NCBI GenBank assembly: GCA_026709505.1
Contig: JAPOSW010000072.1
Location: 1-64,000 of the forward strand
DNA length: 64,000 nt
Source of the DNA: Gammaproteobacteria bacterium
GTDB lineage: Bacteria > Pseudomonadota > Gammaproteobacteria > Arenicellales > Poriferihabitantaceae
Direction of reading: 5' to 3'
The notes under the pieces were generated by a model, which did no database searches, had not been told where the DNA came from, and worked only from the letters and a program-made list of their open reading frames with translations. The translations under genes were made by a program, and so were the position numbers. Positions 6,013 through 61,237 of this stretch are shown here, in pieces; within the stretch, counting starts at the first letter, position 1; each line of letters starts with the position of its first letter.

Positions 6013-6151
6013 ATTCGGGAACTTCTCCACGCGCCTTTCTCCATGCTTCCAGTTCTATCGCATCATAATCTGGCGGTTCTGGGCATTTAGCTGACATGGT
6101 GAATAATGCTTCTAGCCAACCTCCAGTCGCATCTTCTGCGATATTTCCCAT
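6013..6151 (-). pseudogene. Truncated 5' end of a gene following the methyltransferase
   Basis: On the minus strand a frame overlaps the end of the methyltransferase gene and reads MSAKCPEPPDYDAIELEAWR and about ten further residues from an internal ATG at 6097 (or from 6151) before running into reverse-strand IS30 sequence near 6013. The residues look like real protein. In a restriction-modification locus this position would suit a partner endonuclease, but too little is left to identify it; that is inference. Confidence 0.4.
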
Positions 6152-7025
6152 CCTTGCGAATTCCCTTGTAGCAGGTCATGAGCACATCATGGGTCTTATT
6201 CCTGAAATTATCCAAAAACCTGTTCCATTCACGGATCCTGACTTTTCCGTCAACGGAAATCTTCGTAATGTGTCGTCCGGTTGATTTGACCTTGTAGTCA
6301 GACAACTCGCCAACATCACAAAACCTGATTGACGCTTCTTCTGTATTGTCCAGAGCAATCAGTCCGACATTTCCATATGGATCGTTAAACCTGATCGTTG
6401 CCCCGGCAATATCGGGCTCAGGTTTCATTCCCTGTAGTTTTGACAAACGGCCGATCTTTTCTGTGCCCGACCATACTTCAACATCAGAAACGGGCTCTGG
6501 CACAAAAAGGGCAAGACCAACGGGATGTCCAGTATCGCTGAACATCTTGGCAGTTAAGGAAATGAAGGAATGAAGGCGGTCTTGAAACAGTCTCGCCGTA
6601 ATGAATGATTCTGGAATAAGCGCAGCCACATAAGGACAATGATCCAGGCATTTAGCAAGAGCAAACTTGTAAAGATCATCATAATCGCAATCAGGAAAGG
6701 GCAAGTTCCTTACTGTTGCACTGTTCTTTGCAAGCCAGGGAGGGTTGGTAATGCAAACCTCATAACCAGATGGAAAATTATCCAGGCTATCGTGCAAAAT
6801 CACATTTTCATCAGCAGGGAATATGTCAAATGATGCGTAACGATTGCACAGCCCCATGCCAGCAAGCTTCTTGATAAGACTGTTGCTTCCCGCAAAGGGT
6901 TCAAGGATTTGCTGTTCCGGCAGGTCGGCAAGCCTTGCCCATTCTCTGAATGGACGGCAACTGAACGGGTTGCCCTGAGTGTAATACTGACCGCTTGACC
7001 GCTTGGAATCGATTATAGTCACCAC
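6087..7025 (-). CDS. N6-adenine DNA methyltransferase, probably of a restriction-modification system
   Basis: A 312-residue protein with a GTG start. Motif I appears as LEPFAGSNSLIKKL near residues 41-54 and motif IV as TNPPW near residue 94, the signature of N6-adenine (or N4-cytosine) DNA methyltransferases; NPPW favours adenine. The early FSCRPFREWA segment and FxGxN order resemble orphan or type II enzymes. No intact restriction endonuclease lies next to it; a truncated ORF follows it and is cut by an IS30 relic. The gene sits between two IS relics inside the cob cluster, so it was probably acquired. It may now be an orphan methyltransferase. The recognition site cannot be read from the sequence. 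Confidence 0.85.
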   Translation of the reverse strand: MVTIIDSKRSSGQYYTQGNPFSCRPFREWARLADLPEQQILEPFAGSNSLIKKLAGMGLCNRYASFDIFPADENVILHDSLDNFPSGYEVCITNPPWLAKNSATVRNLPFPDCDYDDLYKFALAKCLDHCPYVAALIPESFITARLFQDRLHSFISLTAKMFSDTGHPVGLALFVPEPVSDVEVWSGTEKIGRLSKLQGMKPEPDIAGATIRFNDPYGNVGLIALDNTEEASIRFCDVGELSDYKVKSTGRHITKISVDGKVRIREWNRFLDNFRNKTHDVLMTCYKGIRKDGKYRRRCDWRLARSIIHHVS

Positions 7026-11225: not shown

Positions 11226-12395
11226 TCAATTATTGAGCGATTCTATCTGCCAACCCTCGTTACTTAACTGATTTTGCGCTTCAAGTAATGGTTTCTTCAA
11301 TGCGTTCTCAAGTTTGGTCATGTATTCAAGATGCCATTGAATATACCCTTGCCAAAGATCTTCGTCATATCCATCCATTTTGCAAGAAAACTGGATTTTG
11401 CTAGAAATCTTTTCGTCTAATCTCCGCCATTCCATTGTCTCCCCGAAATTACCCTCAATCTCCTCTTTACTTTTATGCAGGAAATCAAACACAAGCTTGT
11501 TTTCTTTAGTTGAACTGCGCCCAAGCACAATCTCAACGCGGAGTTCATTTTTTCCGAAAATAAGACTATATGGACAACCTCTCATCCCTGAACCTGCCGA
11601 TAACCAGTGATCCTTGCTAGCATTGATATTGTTGTATAAATCACATGAACTGCCTTGGAAAGACTCCAGACAAAGCTCCCAATATTTAAGGCGCAACTTT
11701 TCGGATTTTCTAAGTTCTATTTGAGTATTTTTCTCTTGTTCTTCCTTCTGCCTAATGCTGATCATCAATTCATCCGCTTCAGGCATCGGGATGATCTGTT
11801 CCACACTAATTAGAATCTTTTCGCCAAGGGAATAAGGAGTGACCTTATGGCACTGGATATTAATGCCATAATCAATCAGCCACAGAGCCGCACATGTTAC
11901 TTCCTTTCGGAAACTACGGGCTACCATGATAATACGCTGACCATGCCCAGGATTGAGTCGCACTTCATCCAGGTCAGAAGCATTCATAAATTCACAAATC
12001 TGTGAGGATGCATCAACATCATCCCCATCATTGAACTCTCCCACGTGACCGTCTAGGTACTGTTGAAATATATCGACGATTTCGCCCTTCTTGAGGCTGC
12101 GGCAGTAGGAAGCATATTTAATTGCCTGCCACGCGACATCACGACCGCTATCATCGAGTTTGTTCTCGATTATTACCAGGTTACCGTCTTTATCGAGAGC
12201 CAAAAGATCAAGGCGTTCCCGCGTATCAGTAAAACCCGCAAATTCCTTCTGTATTATCAATAGTTCTTCGCCAAGCGCAGAAGGCTCATGTGCAAGCCAT
12301 TCTTGAAGGTGGTCCCGCTCTCTCAAACCCAGCTCGTCAAATGTTGTGGCAGTCACGGGTGAAATTCGATTTGATTCACGATCAACTGTAAACAC
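11226..12395 (-). CDS. DUF4268 protein with PD-(D/E)XK nuclease-like core
   Basis: 389 residues with GTG start preceded by AGGAG at six bases. Residues 1-120 carry FDELGLRERDHLQEWLA, GEELLIIQKEF, then ERLDLLALDKDG and VIIENKLDDSGRDVAWQ, the D...ExK arrangement of the PD-(D/E)XK fold; the rest is the DUF4268 domain with long helices. The family is often found near restriction or defence genes but its activity is not established. Base composition is more AT-rich than its neighbours, and the gene splits an otherwise continuous transporter-ligase unit, so it looks like an insertion. It probably has its own promoter in the 262 bases upstream. Confidence 0.75.
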   Translation of the reverse strand: MFTVDRESNRISPVTATTFDELGLRERDHLQEWLAHEPSALGEELLIIQKEFAGFTDTRERLDLLALDKDGNLVIIENKLDDSGRDVAWQAIKYASYCRSLKKGEIVDIFQQYLDGHVGEFNDGDDVDASSQICEFMNASDLDEVRLNPGHGQRIIMVARSFRKEVTCAALWLIDYGINIQCHKVTPYSLGEKILISVEQIIPMPEADELMISIRQKEEQEKNTQIELRKSEKLRLKYWELCLESFQGSSCDLYNNINASKDHWLSAGSGMRGCPYSLIFGKNELRVEIVLGRSSTKENKLVFDFLHKSKEEIEGNFGETMEWRRLDEKISSKIQFSCKMDGYDEDLWQGYIQWHLEYMTKLENALKKPLLEAQNQLSNEGWQIESLNN

Positions 12396-19819: not shown

Positions 19820-19995
19820 GCCTGAGCGCACCAGAATTGTGCAAGGGGTTGAAATTATACTATACAGCCAAGCAAGTATTCGGACCGGAAAAGGCGGATT
19901 CTATCAAGTTCCAATTGGAGTATTGGATATTGGGGTTGATGCGATTTTCTGTCCCAGAACAAGTAGAGTCATATTGATTGTGATCATATGCCTTC

Positions 19996-20475
19996 ATGAT
20001 GAACCTGGAATTTAAATCAGCACTGCGTCCGCTACCCATCGGTATCCACACATTTGCAACTCTTCGGTCTACGAGATGCTGCTACGTCCACAAGATACCC
20101 ATGATTCGGGCAGAGATGAAACGCGGATGGTTCTACTTTGTTTCTCCCTCTCGCCGTCTCGCAAGAGCCTGCCTATCAACATCCTGTCTTGATTACTGAA
20201 GGGAAATCAAACCCTTTTTCGAGGACTGGATATCCATGAATATTCGGCCTCTGGTCGATCAAGCGTTAGGTTCTCCGCCTGATCTATTGACTGATCTATT
20301 GACTGATGAATACGACAAACCCGTTTTGGATGTATTGGAGAATGTGGAGATGACCACGGCAAAACAGAACTACCTGAAAGGAGTTTATAGCATCATAGAG
20401 GGCAATCAGGAACATATTCACTTTTTAATTTGTCAAGGCATCAGTATGGTTCGAATAAGTGGCAAGTACATTTAG
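19996..20475 (+). pseudogene. Relic of AAA-ATPase_like / PDDEXK_9 family gene
   Basis: Two open pieces in the same frame are separated by TGA at 20197-20199. The first reads LPIGIHTF and YVHKIPMIRAEMKRGWFYFV with SPSRRLAR, matching the family pattern LPIG-QTF, YVDKT-LI--L---GKYYFLSRPRRFGKS; the P-loop lysine is lost. The second (20236-20475) reads LLTDEYDKPVLDVLENVEM and NYLKGVYSIIEGNQEHIHF, matching the Walker B and following helices (LIDEYDKPILD). The nuclease half is absent. The gene is clearly dead. In the second piece a 12-base tandem duplication gives DLLTDLLTDE. Confidence 0.75.
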
Positions 20476-20541
20476 AAAGTATGCATAATGTCTATTCTCC
20501 AACAGTATCCAGGAATTGTTGCTCCAAGTCTCAATACGCTA

Positions 20542-21450
20542 CTAGCTCCGGCATTTTGGCAACTGGGCAGAAGTACCGAGAATTAGCCCCTCATTTTTCA
20601 CCTGCTTAACAAGCGAATTCCAAAGTGAACGTCTTGTGCCTTCACCAAGATTTGGACCGCCAAGCGCACAACCTTTTGGAGCTTGCCAGTTTCGGGGACT
20701 GAAGTATGTTTCTTCAAGACATATTGCAGGACGAGAAAAACATGATCGTTTACTGGCCAGCCTAGCTGGAAAGAAACTAAACATTCCATTAACCGGAAAG
20801 TCCGGAGTCGCACCACGATAGAGGCGAAGTCGGGAGCATTCATTTATACATCCATTGTTTCGCCTCAAATTCTGCCTCAAGGGTTTAATGGACACTTCCA
20901 GAAAACAATCCGGCACTTTGCCCTCAAGTTTCCTCAAGGGGTTGAGCGGGTCATAGTCAATATAGTCCCTGACTACAAATACGGTATCGAGTACCCACTT
21001 CCTCTTTCCTTTTATTTCCTTTCCACTGCCAAACGCCATTATCGAACCTTTTCCGAGATTTCTCAGACCGGCACCGCCTTGAGATGTTTGACGACAATTC
21101 GAATAGAGAAAACAGTCGCCAAAAATAAAGGGATCGGTGTTGTGTAAACCCCAATAGCTATCTCTCGCCACCCAATAAGGCTCCCAAAGGTAACGAGGAG
21201 CATGCGAACATTGTTCCTCTAATTCAAACTCGGCAATGACTCTCGACTCCGGTTCCCACTCTCCCCAAACATCCATTTTCTCGTTTTTATGTGTCTCTCC
21301 ATCCTTGAAAATTCGGTAGTCACCCTGCACCCGCATAAACTTCCGCTTATGGGGGTTGTGAAGCTTGTTCCAATCTACCGTACCATCCCGTCCGGGCTTC
21401 TGCTCTCCTCCGGGATGCGGAAACTGGACAAAACGATAAATGTCAGGCAT
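20542..21450 (-). CDS. Hypothetical protein, coupled to the VGLNPS protein
   Basis: 302 residues, basic, with many aromatic residues. Visible segments are WEPYWVARDSYWG, DPFIFGDCFLYSNC, LGKGSIMAFGSG and WVLDTVFVVRDYID, which look like a folded, conserved enzyme-like core, but I do not recognise the family with certainty. Its ATG overlaps the end of the preceding gene by eight bases, so both products are probably made together. No signal peptide or membrane segment is seen. Position behind an ATPase and beside a dead AAA/PDDEXK gene suggests an accessory island. Confidence 0.6.
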   Translation of the reverse strand: MPDIYRFVQFPHPGGEQKPGRDGTVDWNKLHNPHKRKFMRVQGDYRIFKDGETHKNEKMDVWGEWEPESRVIAEFELEEQCSHAPRYLWEPYWVARDSYWGLHNTDPFIFGDCFLYSNCRQTSQGGAGLRNLGKGSIMAFGSGKEIKGKRKWVLDTVFVVRDYIDYDPLNPLRKLEGKVPDCFLEVSIKPLRQNLRRNNGCINECSRLRLYRGATPDFPVNGMFSFFPARLASKRSCFSRPAICLEETYFSPRNWQAPKGCALGGPNLGEGTRRSLWNSLVKQVKNEGLILGTSAQLPKCRS

Positions 21451-22264
21451 TTCGATACCCCTCCAGCGCTATTTCGCCGACTTTCTGTTTTTGTCTGGCG
21501 GATATTAGACCAAAAGGCTTATGTGCAGCCCTGCCAAAAATGAACAGGGATCGACCACCTTGAATTTCATGCCACTTCGCTGAAATATCGTAAGGCTGGG
21601 CACGGCGATTACCATTGTCTGTTTCATGGAATCTATGAATGATCTCCCATCCGGACAGAGAATTAAATCTGATACGATCAAGATGTGACTTAGCAACAGA
21701 AAGAGCTACTAATTCTGGCCGAAGCTCTTGCAACAGCATGTGCCAGAGACAGTCACCTCTTTTCACGAGTGAATTGCGAACATTTTTGCTGAGTCTGCTC
21801 CAGGTTGGGTTCGTTGCAACTGGCGAACAGATATCCGTATGCAGCGCAACGGACTCAAAACCCTGATCATGATAGTAACTTGATCCCATGCCATTAAGCA
21901 AAGGCTCGAAGCTATTGAACCAGCTACGGTACGGGGCAATACAGAAGTACCGGGACATTGCTTCAAGATAGCAATACAGATCTCGGTTCTTGCTGTCTCC
22001 GATCGCAGGAAATCGAAGAAATGGCGTATTAGCGGGAAACTCATGCAGTGAGGGATTCAATCCGACTGTCAGTATGCGAAGCCTTGATTTTCGATACGCA
22101 TGCAGATCTCCGAAGAACAGGATAGGCGCGGCGGGAGTGATACATTCCCTGAAGCAGACGGCATCGTCAAATATTTGCCAAGCTAATTCAGCCTGCTTGA
22201 ATAACGGTTCACTACGAAAAGCCGAGATATTCAGACAGGCATTACTCGGCGCTTCATTCATCAT
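21443..22264 (-). CDS. Hypothetical protein with VGLNPS motif (uracil-DNA-glycosylase-like?)
   Basis: 273 residues. The stretch RILTVGLNPSLHEFP near residues 62-76 resembles motif 1 of the uracil-DNA glycosylase superfamily (VGxNPG), and later LHTDICSPVATNP and ELVALSVAKSHL could be the core strands, but no clear second motif is seen, so this is only a suggestion. It overlaps the next gene by eight bases and follows the ATPase gene by 122 bases, all on the minus strand. No membrane segments. Function unknown. Confidence 0.55.
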   Translation of the reverse strand: MMNEAPSNACLNISAFRSEPLFKQAELAWQIFDDAVCFRECITPAAPILFFGDLHAYRKSRLRILTVGLNPSLHEFPANTPFLRFPAIGDSKNRDLYCYLEAMSRYFCIAPYRSWFNSFEPLLNGMGSSYYHDQGFESVALHTDICSPVATNPTWSRLSKNVRNSLVKRGDCLWHMLLQELRPELVALSVAKSHLDRIRFNSLSGWEIIHRFHETDNGNRRAQPYDISAKWHEIQGGRSLFIFGRAAHKPFGLISARQKQKVGEIALEGYRNA

Positions 22265-22386
22265 CAGCTGCAGGAAACCAATAGCAATTAATCATAGTGC
22301 GAAATAGTAATGGATATTTGTGAGCAACAGAGTAGATTTGTTCTGCTTGATCCAGCAATTACGTGGAGGCCTGCTCAGGGTTTGCA

Positions 22387-23592
22387 CTACATTTGCATTA
22401 TAACGAATGTCATCAGACTCGGAATACCCGGCTCATAACAAACCAGGGAATACCCCCCTTTTTCTTCATTTGGAACGGAAATCTCCCAGACATATCCGAT
22501 ATGCAACAGATTCCTGATGTTTTTCCTGATGCTTTCATTCGTTGCAGGCGCTCCCTGATCTTCCAGTGCCTTTCCAATCAATTTCTCGAATTCTTTTTCC
22601 GGAATATATTCCTTTTCCGCCTTGCTGAATGCCTGAGCTATATGATTAGCCAGAGGTCGCAAACTCATTTCCCTTAATTCACCGTATCGATCAAGGTACA
22701 TTTGATCGCATTTCATCATTGCCGTTTTCTCAACCTCTCTGATGGTATCCATCGTCACTCTGAGCGAATCCGTTTCATACAATCTGTTGGCAATACAGTT
22801 CCCCCATACCTGGATGAAGTATGGATAACGGTGAACTCGGCTTAGCAACCCTGATTCAGCCTCTTGGGAAAACGTGACCTGATGCAGTTTTAATGGTATG
22901 GTGAGGGCATCATATGAATCCTCATGCGAAAGACGACCCAGGGGGAATAATTCACTTCTACTCCAAAACGTGGCATTGGCATTGCATAATTCCGTCCTGA
23001 GATTTGGAGTACCTGCAAGCACAAGGAAAAACAGGCAGCCGTCAACCCGGATATCCTGGCTAGCGTTCAGCAGAACCCTTGCCATATCCGGATCCAGCGT
23101 ATGCGCTTCATCCATAATCAGAATGAAGGGCTTGTTCCTGCTCTTTTCGAGAAACAGGGCTTTGAGTGCAAGCATCACTCTCGGGCGATTCAATGACGTT
23201 GCAATCGATGCCGCTCCAACATTGGCAGCAACTGAAAAATTATCAAGCAGAGGCTTAAACAAATTCTGGACTTTCTGGAACAGGCTCTGATCATTTCCGA
23301 TGATCAGGCTGGCCAGTTCTCCCAAGTCCTTGAATTCCGAGGGCGTGACCCAGAAAACTTCTATTTTGTTGTCGGTCTGCCTAAGGGTTTCCTTCTGCAG
23401 ATAACGCAACATGGCGGTTTTACCATTACCGCGTGGACCATAGATGATCATGTTTTGATCCAGAGGCGATTTCCGCATCAATAGATCAACGCAATCCTGA
23501 AAATATTGCCGCTCTTGCCCTCGCCCGGCAAAATATGGCGGAATTCTTCCATCGCCAGGGTGAAATAGATTTTTCAGGCTTGCATTAGACAT
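22387..23592 (-). CDS. AAA-type P-loop ATPase (Orc1/STAND-like)
   Basis: 401 residues. Walker A MIIYGPRGNGKTAMLRYL lies near residues 48-65 and Walker B FILIMDEAHTLD near residue 155; sensor-like LVLAGTPNL and an arginine-rich segment follow. The C-terminal third has the helical character of a winged-helix domain (IRKNIRNLLHIGYVWEI). It resembles archaeal Orc1-like or MalT-type STAND ATPases that act as sensors or loaders. On the minus strand it is the first of three genes, ahead of two unknown proteins, so it may drive a small multi-gene system. Specific role unknown. Confidence 0.75.
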   Translation of the reverse strand: MSNASLKNLFHPGDGRIPPYFAGRGQERQYFQDCVDLLMRKSPLDQNMIIYGPRGNGKTAMLRYLQKETLRQTDNKIEVFWVTPSEFKDLGELASLIIGNDQSLFQKVQNLFKPLLDNFSVAANVGAASIATSLNRPRVMLALKALFLEKSRNKPFILIMDEAHTLDPDMARVLLNASQDIRVDGCLFFLVLAGTPNLRTELCNANATFWSRSELFPLGRLSHEDSYDALTIPLKLHQVTFSQEAESGLLSRVHRYPYFIQVWGNCIANRLYETDSLRVTMDTIREVEKTAMMKCDQMYLDRYGELREMSLRPLANHIAQAFSKAEKEYIPEKEFEKLIGKALEDQGAPATNESIRKNIRNLLHIGYVWEISVPNEEKGGYSLVCYEPGIPSLMTFVIMQM

Positions 23593-23893
23593 ATCAGAAC
23601 AGTTATGGAAAATAAATAATTCCCGGAGCAGTAAAAGAGATTGTTATACTGAATTCCCTGCGAACCAAAACCCAAAGGCATGGCACATGCCTGAATAACC
23701 CTTATCCTGCTGGCGATGCAATAAATATTAATTTTAGTTTACATGGTGTACTGAGGGATATTCTCAATATTATGGCGGAAATTTTCAATAATCCAGTCCT
23801 TGTACAGTCTCGGCAAAGAACAGGCAACTATGCGGTCCGGCCAGGTGGGTTGAGATTCCCTCGATCAGCCCTCAGCGTGGAGAGATTGCGATA
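23593..23893. other. Intergenic region between divergent ATPase and TRAP operon
   Basis: 301 AT-rich bases between divergently transcribed genes, presumably holding both promoters. I see no ORF or clear operator. A GGAG sequence lies 11 bases before the dctQ ATG. Confidence 0.5.
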
Positions 23894-39488: not shown

Positions 39489-40652
39489 TCACCCCCGCCA
39501 GCACGGAAGTTCCTGCTGCAATTGCCCGATGGCCACTGCACGGACCTTCTCCGCCAAGTCGAATGACGATTCTCCAGGGTAAACCAAGAACAGATGATCC
39601 AGCCGAAGGTCGGCAAGTGCGGTTTTCATGGAGCGGGCTATTCCAGGAGTGGATGTCCGCTTGAATTCGAACCCCCAACGTTTTCTTCCTCTTATCAACA
39701 ACAGGTCCAGTTCTGCTCCCGTGTGGGTTGCCCAGAAAAAACATTCGTGGGGCCTAGCGCCGGAAATCTCGATCGCCTGAGTAAGCGCAAAGCCCTCCCA
39801 AGAGGCACCTAGCCGGGGATGACATTCAAGGTCTGCCAGATTTTCAATACCGATCAATGCATGCAGAAGCCCGGTATCGGTAAAAAAGACTTTTGGAGCC
39901 TTGACCTGACGCTTGCGGATATTCTCGTGCCATGGCTGGAGTTGACGGACGACCAATGCCGAAGTCAGGATATCCAGATAACGACGGATTGTAATGTGGC
40001 TGACGCCAAAGCTTCGAGCGAATTCGGAAGCGTTCCAGATCTGACCGTGATAATGAGCCAGCATGGTCCAGAATCTTCTCAACGCGGGAGCACCGACCTG
40101 AATTCCTAGTTGAGGCATGTCCTTTTCGAGAAATGTGAAAATGAACTCCTCCCGCCAGTTGAAACTTTCCGAATCACTTGGAGACAAGAATGATTTGGGA
40201 AAGCCGCCCCTCAACCAGAGCTGGTCATGATTGCTCAACCCGATCTCCTGCAAGGAAAATCCCTCTAGCTTATGAAATGCCACTCTTCCAGCCAGAGATT
40301 CGTTCCCCTGACGCAGAAGTTCTGGTGCGGCGCTTCCAAGAATCAGGAACCGGGCCGGTAGTGGCTGACGATCTACGAGTACGCGCAACAGAGGAAACAA
40401 GTCCGGCAATCGCTGTATTTCGTCTAGTACGACCAGACCTTCGAGCGGTTCCAGTGCAAGTTCTGGATCAGACAAGCGAGCAAGATCTCTCGGTCTCTCC
40501 AGATCGAATATATGGCAATTCCCAGTCCACTGACCAGCTATCTGTTTCGCCAGAGTAGTTTTTCCGACTTGTCTGGCACCCAAGAGGATAACAATCGGAT
40601 GATGGCGCAGGAGCCTTTTTATTCGGTTCAGGTGGTTTATTCGTTCGATCAT
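39489..40652 (-). CDS. ATP-binding protein with AAA_14 and DUF4143 domains
   Basis: 387 residues. Walker A ILLGARQVGKTTLAKQIA lies near residues 22-39 and Walker B GLVVLDEIQRLP near residue 73, then the arginine-rich SAAPELLRQGNESLAGRV; the C-terminal half is the DUF4143 domain with RRYLDILTSALVVRQLQPW and the nuclease-like strand GAELDLLLIRG ... FEFKRT. Family members are widespread accessory ATPases, some tied to defence or mobile DNA, with no defined reaction. It converges with the thioredoxin-like gene. Confidence 0.88.
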   Translation of the reverse strand: MIERINHLNRIKRLLRHHPIVILLGARQVGKTTLAKQIAGQWTGNCHIFDLERPRDLARLSDPELALEPLEGLVVLDEIQRLPDLFPLLRVLVDRQPLPARFLILGSAAPELLRQGNESLAGRVAFHKLEGFSLQEIGLSNHDQLWLRGGFPKSFLSPSDSESFNWREEFIFTFLEKDMPQLGIQVGAPALRRFWTMLAHYHGQIWNASEFARSFGVSHITIRRYLDILTSALVVRQLQPWHENIRKRQVKAPKVFFTDTGLLHALIGIENLADLECHPRLGASWEGFALTQAIEISGARPHECFFWATHTGAELDLLLIRGRKRWGFEFKRTSTPGIARSMKTALADLRLDHLFLVYPGESSFDLAEKVRAVAIGQLQQELPCWRG

Positions 40653-59842: not shown

Positions 59843-61237
59843 ATGACACTCGATCAAATTGAGGCTCTGGTTGCAACAGGCGAGTCAGAAATGCTGGAGT
59901 TCAAGGCCACGACAGGAGCTCGGCGCGAGGCGGCGAAGACCATTTGCGCCATGCTTAACAATAAGGGCGGGCATGTGCTGTTCGGCATCAGCCCAAGCGA
60001 CGGGGTGATGGGCCAAAATGTCAGTGAACGTACAATGGAAGAACTAAGTGCCGAAATTCAACGGATCGAACCATCATCGCCTGTTGAGATCGAGACAGTT
60101 CGTATTTCAGGTGACCGACAGGTGATTGTGGTTCACTTGGAGCCCGGTTTATTGCCTCCCTATCGATATAAGGGGTTTTCCTATCGACGGGTCGGTAATA
60201 CCACACGACGCATGTCGGGTGACGAATATAACCGTATGCTTTTCGAGCGCATGCATGCCGAGCAACGATGGGAAAATCAGTTCGCTAGAGGGTGGTCATT
60301 GGATGATCTCGATCTTGCCGAAATTCGCAACACGGTCGCTGAGGCGGTTCGCGTTGGCCGCTTGAACGCGCCGGGAAGCGAAAAACCAGAAGAATTGTTA
60401 CGTGGTTTGGGGCTAATGAGTGGTGGTGAACTGTATCGGGCCGCAATAGTGCTTTTTGGCAAGACCGAGCGGCTCGACCCGGAAATGCCGCAGTGTATGC
60501 TCCGCGTAGCGCGTTTTCGCGGCCTAGACCGATCCGACTTCATAGACAATCGACAGTTCCATGGAAACGCCTTCAGCCTTCTTGCTAACGCAGAGCGCTT
60601 CTTTCGCGAGACCTTGCCCATTTCAAGCCGATTTGTATCGGGGCGCATCCAACGCATTGACGAACCGGTGTACCCGCCTCTGGCTATCCGTGAAGCACTC
60701 GCGAATGCTCTGTGTCATCGCGATTACGCAATAGTTGGTGGTTCCATTGGTTTAGCCGTCTACGACGACCGGCTAGAAGTCACATCCACTGGACCATTGC
60801 ACTTTGGGCTTGCTCCGAGGGATTTATTTGACTCGCACGAGTCGAAACCATGGAACCCGCTCATCGCCCGTACATTCTACCGACGTGGAATAATTGAGGA
60901 GTGGGGTCGAGGCACACTTACGATGAGGGATCTGGTGGTGACCGCTGGCCTGCCAAAACCAGAAATCGAAGAGCGAAACGACTGCGTGACCGTACGATTT
61001 CGACGCTTTAACCACCAGACTGAAAGAGATCTTGGGGGTGGTCTGACAGAACAGCAACTTGCAATCCTAACGCTTTTGCATCGTTCTGATCGCTCTCTTG
61101 CTCTTGGAGAAATTCGTACGCTATTGGGACAAACAGAAAATAAAAGACGAGTGAGAGAGGATCTTGCCACCCTAAAAATCAAAGGCCTAGCCGAATCCAC
61201 AGGACACGGACGAGGGGCGCGCTGGAAACCCCGCTAA
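59843..61237 (+). CDS. AlbA_2/Schlafen-type DNA-binding protein with divergent ATPase domain
   Basis: 464 residues. Residues 10-120 are an AlbA_2 (Schlafen-like) domain: SEMLEFKATTGARREAAKTI, MLNNKGGHVLFGIS, PYRYKGFSYRRVGNTTRRM. The following part is the HATPase_c_4 region with YPPLAIREALANALCHRDYAI and RRGIIEEWGRGT, as in RecG-like annotated ATP-binding transcription-regulator homologues; the C-terminus ends in a winged helix (LGEIRTLLGQTENKRRVREDL). These proteins are often accessory and sometimes defence-linked. Phased repeats follow directly. Confidence 0.85.
   Translation: MTLDQIEALVATGESEMLEFKATTGARREAAKTICAMLNNKGGHVLFGISPSDGVMGQNVSERTMEELSAEIQRIEPSSPVEIETVRISGDRQVIVVHLEPGLLPPYRYKGFSYRRVGNTTRRMSGDEYNRMLFERMHAEQRWENQFARGWSLDDLDLAEIRNTVAEAVRVGRLNAPGSEKPEELLRGLGLMSGGELYRAAIVLFGKTERLDPEMPQCMLRVARFRGLDRSDFIDNRQFHGNAFSLLANAERFFRETLPISSRFVSGRIQRIDEPVYPPLAIREALANALCHRDYAIVGGSIGLAVYDDRLEVTSTGPLHFGLAPRDLFDSHESKPWNPLIARTFYRRGIIEEWGRGTLTMRDLVVTAGLPKPEIEERNDCVTVRFRRFNHQTERDLGGGLTEQQLAILTLLHRSDRSLALGEIRTLLGQTENKRRVREDLATLKIKGLAESTGHGRGARWKPR

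Follow-up and report, generated by a model that had tools for sequence, protein, structure and literature searches.

Base-excision defence in bacteria

Defence against phages by base excision has been demonstrated only between 2024 and 2026, with Brig1 and Brig3 both originating from a soil DNA library. Brig1 is a single-gene system that removes alpha-glucosyl-5hmC (PMC11078745). The brig3 gene (GenBank PX942695) is overlapped by bapA, a second gene whose product was initially of unknown structure and function and was then identified as a glucosyl hydrolase, releasing 5hmC from glucosyl-5hmC (PMC13160076). BapA is modelled as an ASCH-like protein with two beta-barrels, in which D101 is essential and Q252 dispensable (PMC13160076). 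The crystal structure of Brig3, presented in the same preprint of February 2026, identifies the residues responsible for holding and excising 5hmC (F31, N50, P51, S52, E55, Y97, W100, F101, H125 and D127) and those that contact DNA (R53, S139, R140, A174, E175, R197, A224, N225, G229, T230 and N233; PMC13160076).

The locus and its genes

The window analysed here is a stretch of 64,000 nucleotides from a gammaproteobacterial contig (JAPOSW010000072.1). Three minus-strand open reading frames, A, B and C, are present where a sequence-only reading had placed them (Table 1), and the overlap of eight bases that it had reported between B and C is exactly 8 bp long, ATGCCTGA. A strong Shine-Dalgarno-like sequence, GGAGGGG, lies 7 bases 5' of the C start, and the gap between A and B measures 122 bp. 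The G+C content of the three genes (46–47%) is lower than that of the flanking genes measured (49–55%). The neighbouring gene, regarded earlier as a dead AAA/PDDEXK gene, retains a recognizable AAA part, which covers positions 144–196 of the PF09820 profile (E 1.4e-8); the PDDEXK part was not seen. This remnant is taken to be a trace of older cargo at the site of B and C.

Table 1. Features of the locus and cassettes that contain distant relatives of B (B')
Feature	Position	Strand	Remark
Gene A, AAA ATPase, 401 aa	22387-23592	-	dispersed multi-copy family
Gene B, VGLNPS protein, 273 aa, predicted base-excision effector	21443-22264	-	Brig3-like residues
Gene C, coupled partner of B, 302 aa	20542-21450	-	without family match
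B stop/C start overlap, ATGCCTGA, 8 bp	21443-21450	-	
Remnant of AAA-ATPase_like (PF09820) gene	20236-20475	+	Pfam
Variable accessory site, acyl-CoA synthetase to TRAP transporter dctQ	19832-23893	n/a	cargo differs between species
TS-B'-aGPT-Pplase3 cassette, Leptospira plasmid	L032:7021-11194		
TS-B'-aGPT-Pplase3 cassette, genome of the window's class (G052; L022/L040)	L040:358-4564		
TS-B'-aGPT-Pplase3 cassette, tailed-phage contig	L034:6882-11210		

Elsewhere in the window, a DUF4268 gene (11226-12395, E 1e-33) stands amid housekeeping genes, and the region preceding DUF4268 resembles a nuclease-type domain, by eye only. A protein of 312 aa (6087-7025) resembles an orphan adenine methylase by eye and has no match in Pfam. 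Two further genes are of typical accessory character: an AAA_14/DUF4143 ATPase (39489-40652) and a Schlafen AlbA_2 protein resembling the RecG C-terminus (59843-61237).

Gene B and the active site of Brig3

Scans of B against Pfam, NCBIfam, PADLOC and PHROGs gave no usable match, a PDB sequence search returned none, and the AlphaFold model, based on an alignment of 3 rows, has a pLDDT of 34. The pocket and excision residues of Brig3 nevertheless have counterparts in B, namely F51 (or F50), N70, P71, S72, E75, Y112, W115, F116, H142 and D144. These ten residues follow each other in the same order as in Brig3, at offsets of +15 to +20, and each occupies an invariant column of the alignment of the B family (A4). 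Among the DNA contacts, the phosphate contacts S139, R140 and R197 have fitting counterparts in S156, R157 and R220/R221, and further counterparts are A191, A247 and G252. Five contacts differ: R53 is replaced by L73, E175 by K192, N225 by H248, T230 by L253 and N233 by A256. The position of the intercalating N225, a histidine in B, is occupied by glutamine in a relative from Defluviicoccus.

Scored only at the residues named and numbered in PMC13160076, B attains 10 of 11 in the first four blocks, those of the pocket. The maximum was 7 among 300 shuffles and 6 both among 48 ordinary proteins of the UDG superfamily and among the other window ORFs of at least 200 aa. When the later DNA contacts are included the score is 16 of 21, against a maximum of 13 in 1000 shuffles; the motifs of B were already known when the comparison was drawn up, and its controls protect against chance but not against the choice of template. 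The proposal that B is a base-excision-like protein gains support from the presence of this constellation, and B is best described as a putative Brig3-like DNA glycosylase of the UDG superfamily, with a predicted fold and substrate. Brig1 and Brig2 (the latter in PMC13160076) are likewise UDG-superfamily glycosylases directed against phages with modified bases, as B would be; for the Brig1 residues Y121, N145 and E147 (PMC11078745) no placement on B was obtained.

The Defluviicoccus relative (L009), 58% identical, is encoded directly behind an integrase-like frame and is not accompanied by C, and more distant ones, at 24–30% identity, occur on a Leptospira plasmid, in genome G052 and on a tailed-phage contig. 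Invariant across the family are the motifs FG, GLNPSxxEF, RF, PYxxWF, HxD and PxAT. Scans of viral contigs with the single proteins A, B and C revealed no relative; scans with alignments recovered L034/L035 and L037.

The likeness of B to UDG families 2, 5 and 6 (PF03167, TIGR04274) resides in motif 1, in an N-terminal alignment to family 5 and in a weak family 6 match of one relative. A PF03167 protein (L111) contains the identical string VGLNPS. The profile of the B family aligns with the motif-1 region of family 5 with a probability of 23% and an hhalign score of 33, which none of 100 column shuffles reached (maximum 24); the signal is confined to the N-terminal third. With family 2 the hhalign signal was weak, the TS-linked subset not rising above shuffles, and with family 4, family 6 and the GQAPG group none was detected. 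The Leptospira relative (L032:8007-8810) gives a weak match (E 8e-4) to TIGR04274, a model of deoxyinosine glycosylase. B differs from the superfamily at large in having no Pfam UDG match and in possessing pocket residues that are absent from the 48 ordinary members.

The distant relatives on the Leptospira plasmid, in G052 and on the tailed-phage contig share the NPSxxEF, PYxxWF and HxD motifs with B, but their partners are different, C being replaced by a thymidylate synthase (TS) and aGPT-Pplase3. The order in these cassettes is thymidylate synthase (PF00303), the relative of B and aGPT-Pplase3 (PF18746), followed by a convergent HTH-IrrE gene, next to which a small gene occupies the HigB position. 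The aGPT-Pplase3 proteins also match the Amino acid:DNA transferase model PF18724, and in G052 the HTH-IrrE protein gives a match to PD-Lambda-2_B of PADLOC (E 2.5e-36). DefensePredictor lists aGPT-Pplase and UDG domains among predicted, bench-untested defence systems; for one validated system it mentions a thymidylate synthase domain (PMC13092281).

Gene C and its possible likeness to BapA

No family had been recognized for C, and none emerged here: Pfam, NCBIfam, PADLOC and PHROGs scans and a PDB sequence search were without match, and the AlphaFold model (alignment of 2 rows) has a pLDDT of 29. Nmad3 was considered as an identity for C and rejected, hhalign giving no signal. Relatives were found in the sister species G278 (59% identity), on the viral contig L037 (37%) and, in a broken frame, on a Synechocystis plasmid (33%). 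They share the motifs GEWEPxS, NTDPFxFG, FGS, LDTVFVV and RLYxG. The homologue on the viral contig (L037:4053-5084, 343 aa) has no B beside it and is flanked by a portal-like gene on one side and a tape-measure-like gene on the other, as judged by eye; it is a possible phage-borne accessory gene.

As in the Brig3–BapA pair, the gene of a UDG-superfamily glycosylase, putative in the case of B, overlaps a second gene without recognized family. D106 of C, invariant and part of NTDPF, stands at the place of BapA D101, although for a single residue a positional coincidence is not negligible. Q256 stands at the place of the dispensable Q252 and is not conserved in the viral homologue. Gene order, overlap, size and these two residues are suggestive of a BapA-like protein, which may process modified bases. 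The site of B and C, variable and chromosomal, is different from that of Brig3–BapA.

Variability of the site in related species

In G278 the genes A, B and C are found at the same site with the same flanks, distributed over two contigs, one with the acyl-CoA synthetase and the other with the TRAP transporter. The 8-bp overlap of B and C is preserved there (ATGGTTGA, L039 326-333), and therefore the overlap is not a product of chance. A is interrupted by a frameshift near residue 335 and B by another near residue 176, and C is intact; since the break in B is close to a contig end, it may be an assembly fault. Identity between counterparts amounts to 73% for A, 50–69% for B and 59% for C, compared with 86–95% for the flanking genes, so that B and C diverge faster than their surroundings. 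The dN/dS values of 0.22 for C and 0.12–0.17 for B, obtained with dS near saturation, indicate that both frames are under constraint at the protein level. In another species (G275), whose acyl-CoA synthetase is 91% identical, the place of the three genes is taken by an AAA_21 ATPase and by a remnant that resembles IS30 on inspection by eye (L052:5917-7717). This different accessory cargo in a related species, together with the Brig3 constellation in B, supports the earlier suggestion that the genes are related to defence.

Genes of the two types are rare. With the window genome counted, B-type genes occur in 2 of 274 genomes of the class and 1 of 398 of the phylum, and C-type genes in 1 of 274, 1 of 398 and 2 of 60 close relatives. 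In these limited samples, B and C were not found together outside the genus. The sequence-only reading had looked for support to co-occurrence of all three genes in unrelated genomes; even the pair was found elsewhere in G278 alone.

A proposed two-gene anti-phage operon

The gene anatomy, the conserved overlap, the active-site residues and the variable site are what is observed. The explanation that we favour, with moderate confidence, is a translationally coupled anti-phage operon of the Brig3–BapA kind made up of B and C; the fold of B, the substrate, the role of C and the defensive function are inferred. B would be a monofunctional DNA glycosylase that flips a hydroxymethylated pyrimidine of phage DNA into an aromatic pocket formed by F51, Y112, W115, F116 and H142. 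E75 would read the hydroxymethyl group, N70 and D144 would cut the glycosidic bond, and the resulting abasic sites would bring phage replication to a stop. C would act on the same modified bases, most likely by stripping a bulky group such as a sugar and so preparing the base for B, as BapA does; alternatively, it could present or select modified bases for B. With H248 in place of the intercalating N225, B may recognize a different base pair. A system of an undescribed kind had been thought plausible; because Brig3–BapA was reported in February 2026 (PMC13160076), its type is not undescribed.

A variant of this explanation, tentative and in our judgement clearly less probable, holds that B and C constitute a distinct branch of glycosylase defence directed against another hypermodified base, for example 5-hydroxymethyluracil or a thymine derivative. 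In that case a difference in the opposite base would explain the change from N to H or Q, C would act as a new demodifying enzyme, and a second branch, joining the glycosylase to thymine-modification enzymes, would be represented by the TS-B'-aGPT-Pplase3 cassettes.

The Brig3–BapA comparison is weakened by the occurrence of each gene without the other, B in Defluviicoccus and in the TS cassettes and C on the viral contig and the Synechocystis plasmid, and by the apparent frameshifts in A and B of the sister species, in which C is intact. The separate occurrences lend themselves to the view, which we consider unlikely, that B is a Brig3-like glycosylase acting alone and C an independent gene coupled to it by chance, for example a regulator or an immunity factor; moreover, the first open reading frame of the Brig3 system alone sufficed against phage with unglucosylated 5hmC (PMC13160076). 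Order and overlap, however, have been kept in G278 although sequence identity has fallen to 50–69%, and C is under constraint.

Less probable still is a pathway by which a mobile element modifies its own bases, perhaps to hypermodified thymine, so that B and C would serve self-marking and not attack. The position of distant relatives of B between thymidylate synthase and aGPT-Pplase3 in three settings speaks for such a role, yet neither enzyme was found near the window genes, and base removal is the activity suggested by the excision residues that B has kept.

The ATPase as a neighbour

A had been read as a P-loop ATPase with a winged-helix-like C-terminus. The ATPase part is borne out by a Walker A motif (GPRGNGKT, from residue 52), a Walker B motif (ILIMDEAH, from residue 157) and Pfam matches to AAA_16, AAA_22 and ORC-CDC6-like; a winged helix was not detected by Pfam.

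The window genome contains 13 matches to A at about 12 loci, A itself included, and B and C are each present in a single copy. The seven copies closest to A are 51–59% identical to it and the remoter ones 25–41%. This family of ORC-CDC6-like AAA ATPases has undergone a lineage-specific expansion to about 12 scattered copies, and fragments of it occur in sister species. In the neighbourhoods read (C125, C68, C128 with two copies, C13, C18, C76 and parts of others) the copies are mostly lone genes among ordinary genes, the one on C76 adjoining leuA. A mobile or transposable unit was considered and dropped, as the flanks of 12 copies are almost devoid of common sequence, sharing only one inverted match of 155 bases and one match of 27 bases. 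Genes of the family occur in 9 of the 30 genomes searched (window genome counted), many as fragments. More distant relatives are annotated simply as 'ATP-binding protein' and reside on plasmids, in many cases actinobacterial; the sole one inspected, on a Rhodococcus plasmid, stands alone.

A, B and C were found together only in the window genome and in G278, and none of the B or C homologues outside the genus has A. The three-gene cassette proposed earlier is not supported by these findings, and the result that was to refute it, failure to find the three genes together elsewhere, is what was obtained beyond one sister species. Given the dispersal of its family and its absence beside those homologues, A is probably an unrelated neighbour and not a component of the B–C system. 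A single system with the ATPase as its motor or sensor could appeal to the order of the genes, preserved at the same site in G278; it is very improbable in view of the dispersed, mostly lone copies without common flanks, the solitary Rhodococcus relative, the frameshift in A of G278 and the homologues without A. Equally doubtful is an ordinary repair glycosylase for uracil or hypoxanthine beside an unrelated C, which would account for the superfamily motif and the weak TIGR04274 match but sits poorly with four PF03167 matches already present in the window genome, with the great rarity of B and its variable site, and with a pocket that fits Brig3 and that ordinary UDGs do not fit.

Significance

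If the explanation of B and C as a Brig3–BapA-like operon is correct, such a pair would be placed in a chromosome, with data from a sister species, and would define a searchable family with a conserved active site. Variation of the intercalating residue could set base specificity. The association of the distant relatives with thymidylate synthase and aGPT-Pplase3 would render the action of these glycosylases against thymine-modified phages directly testable.
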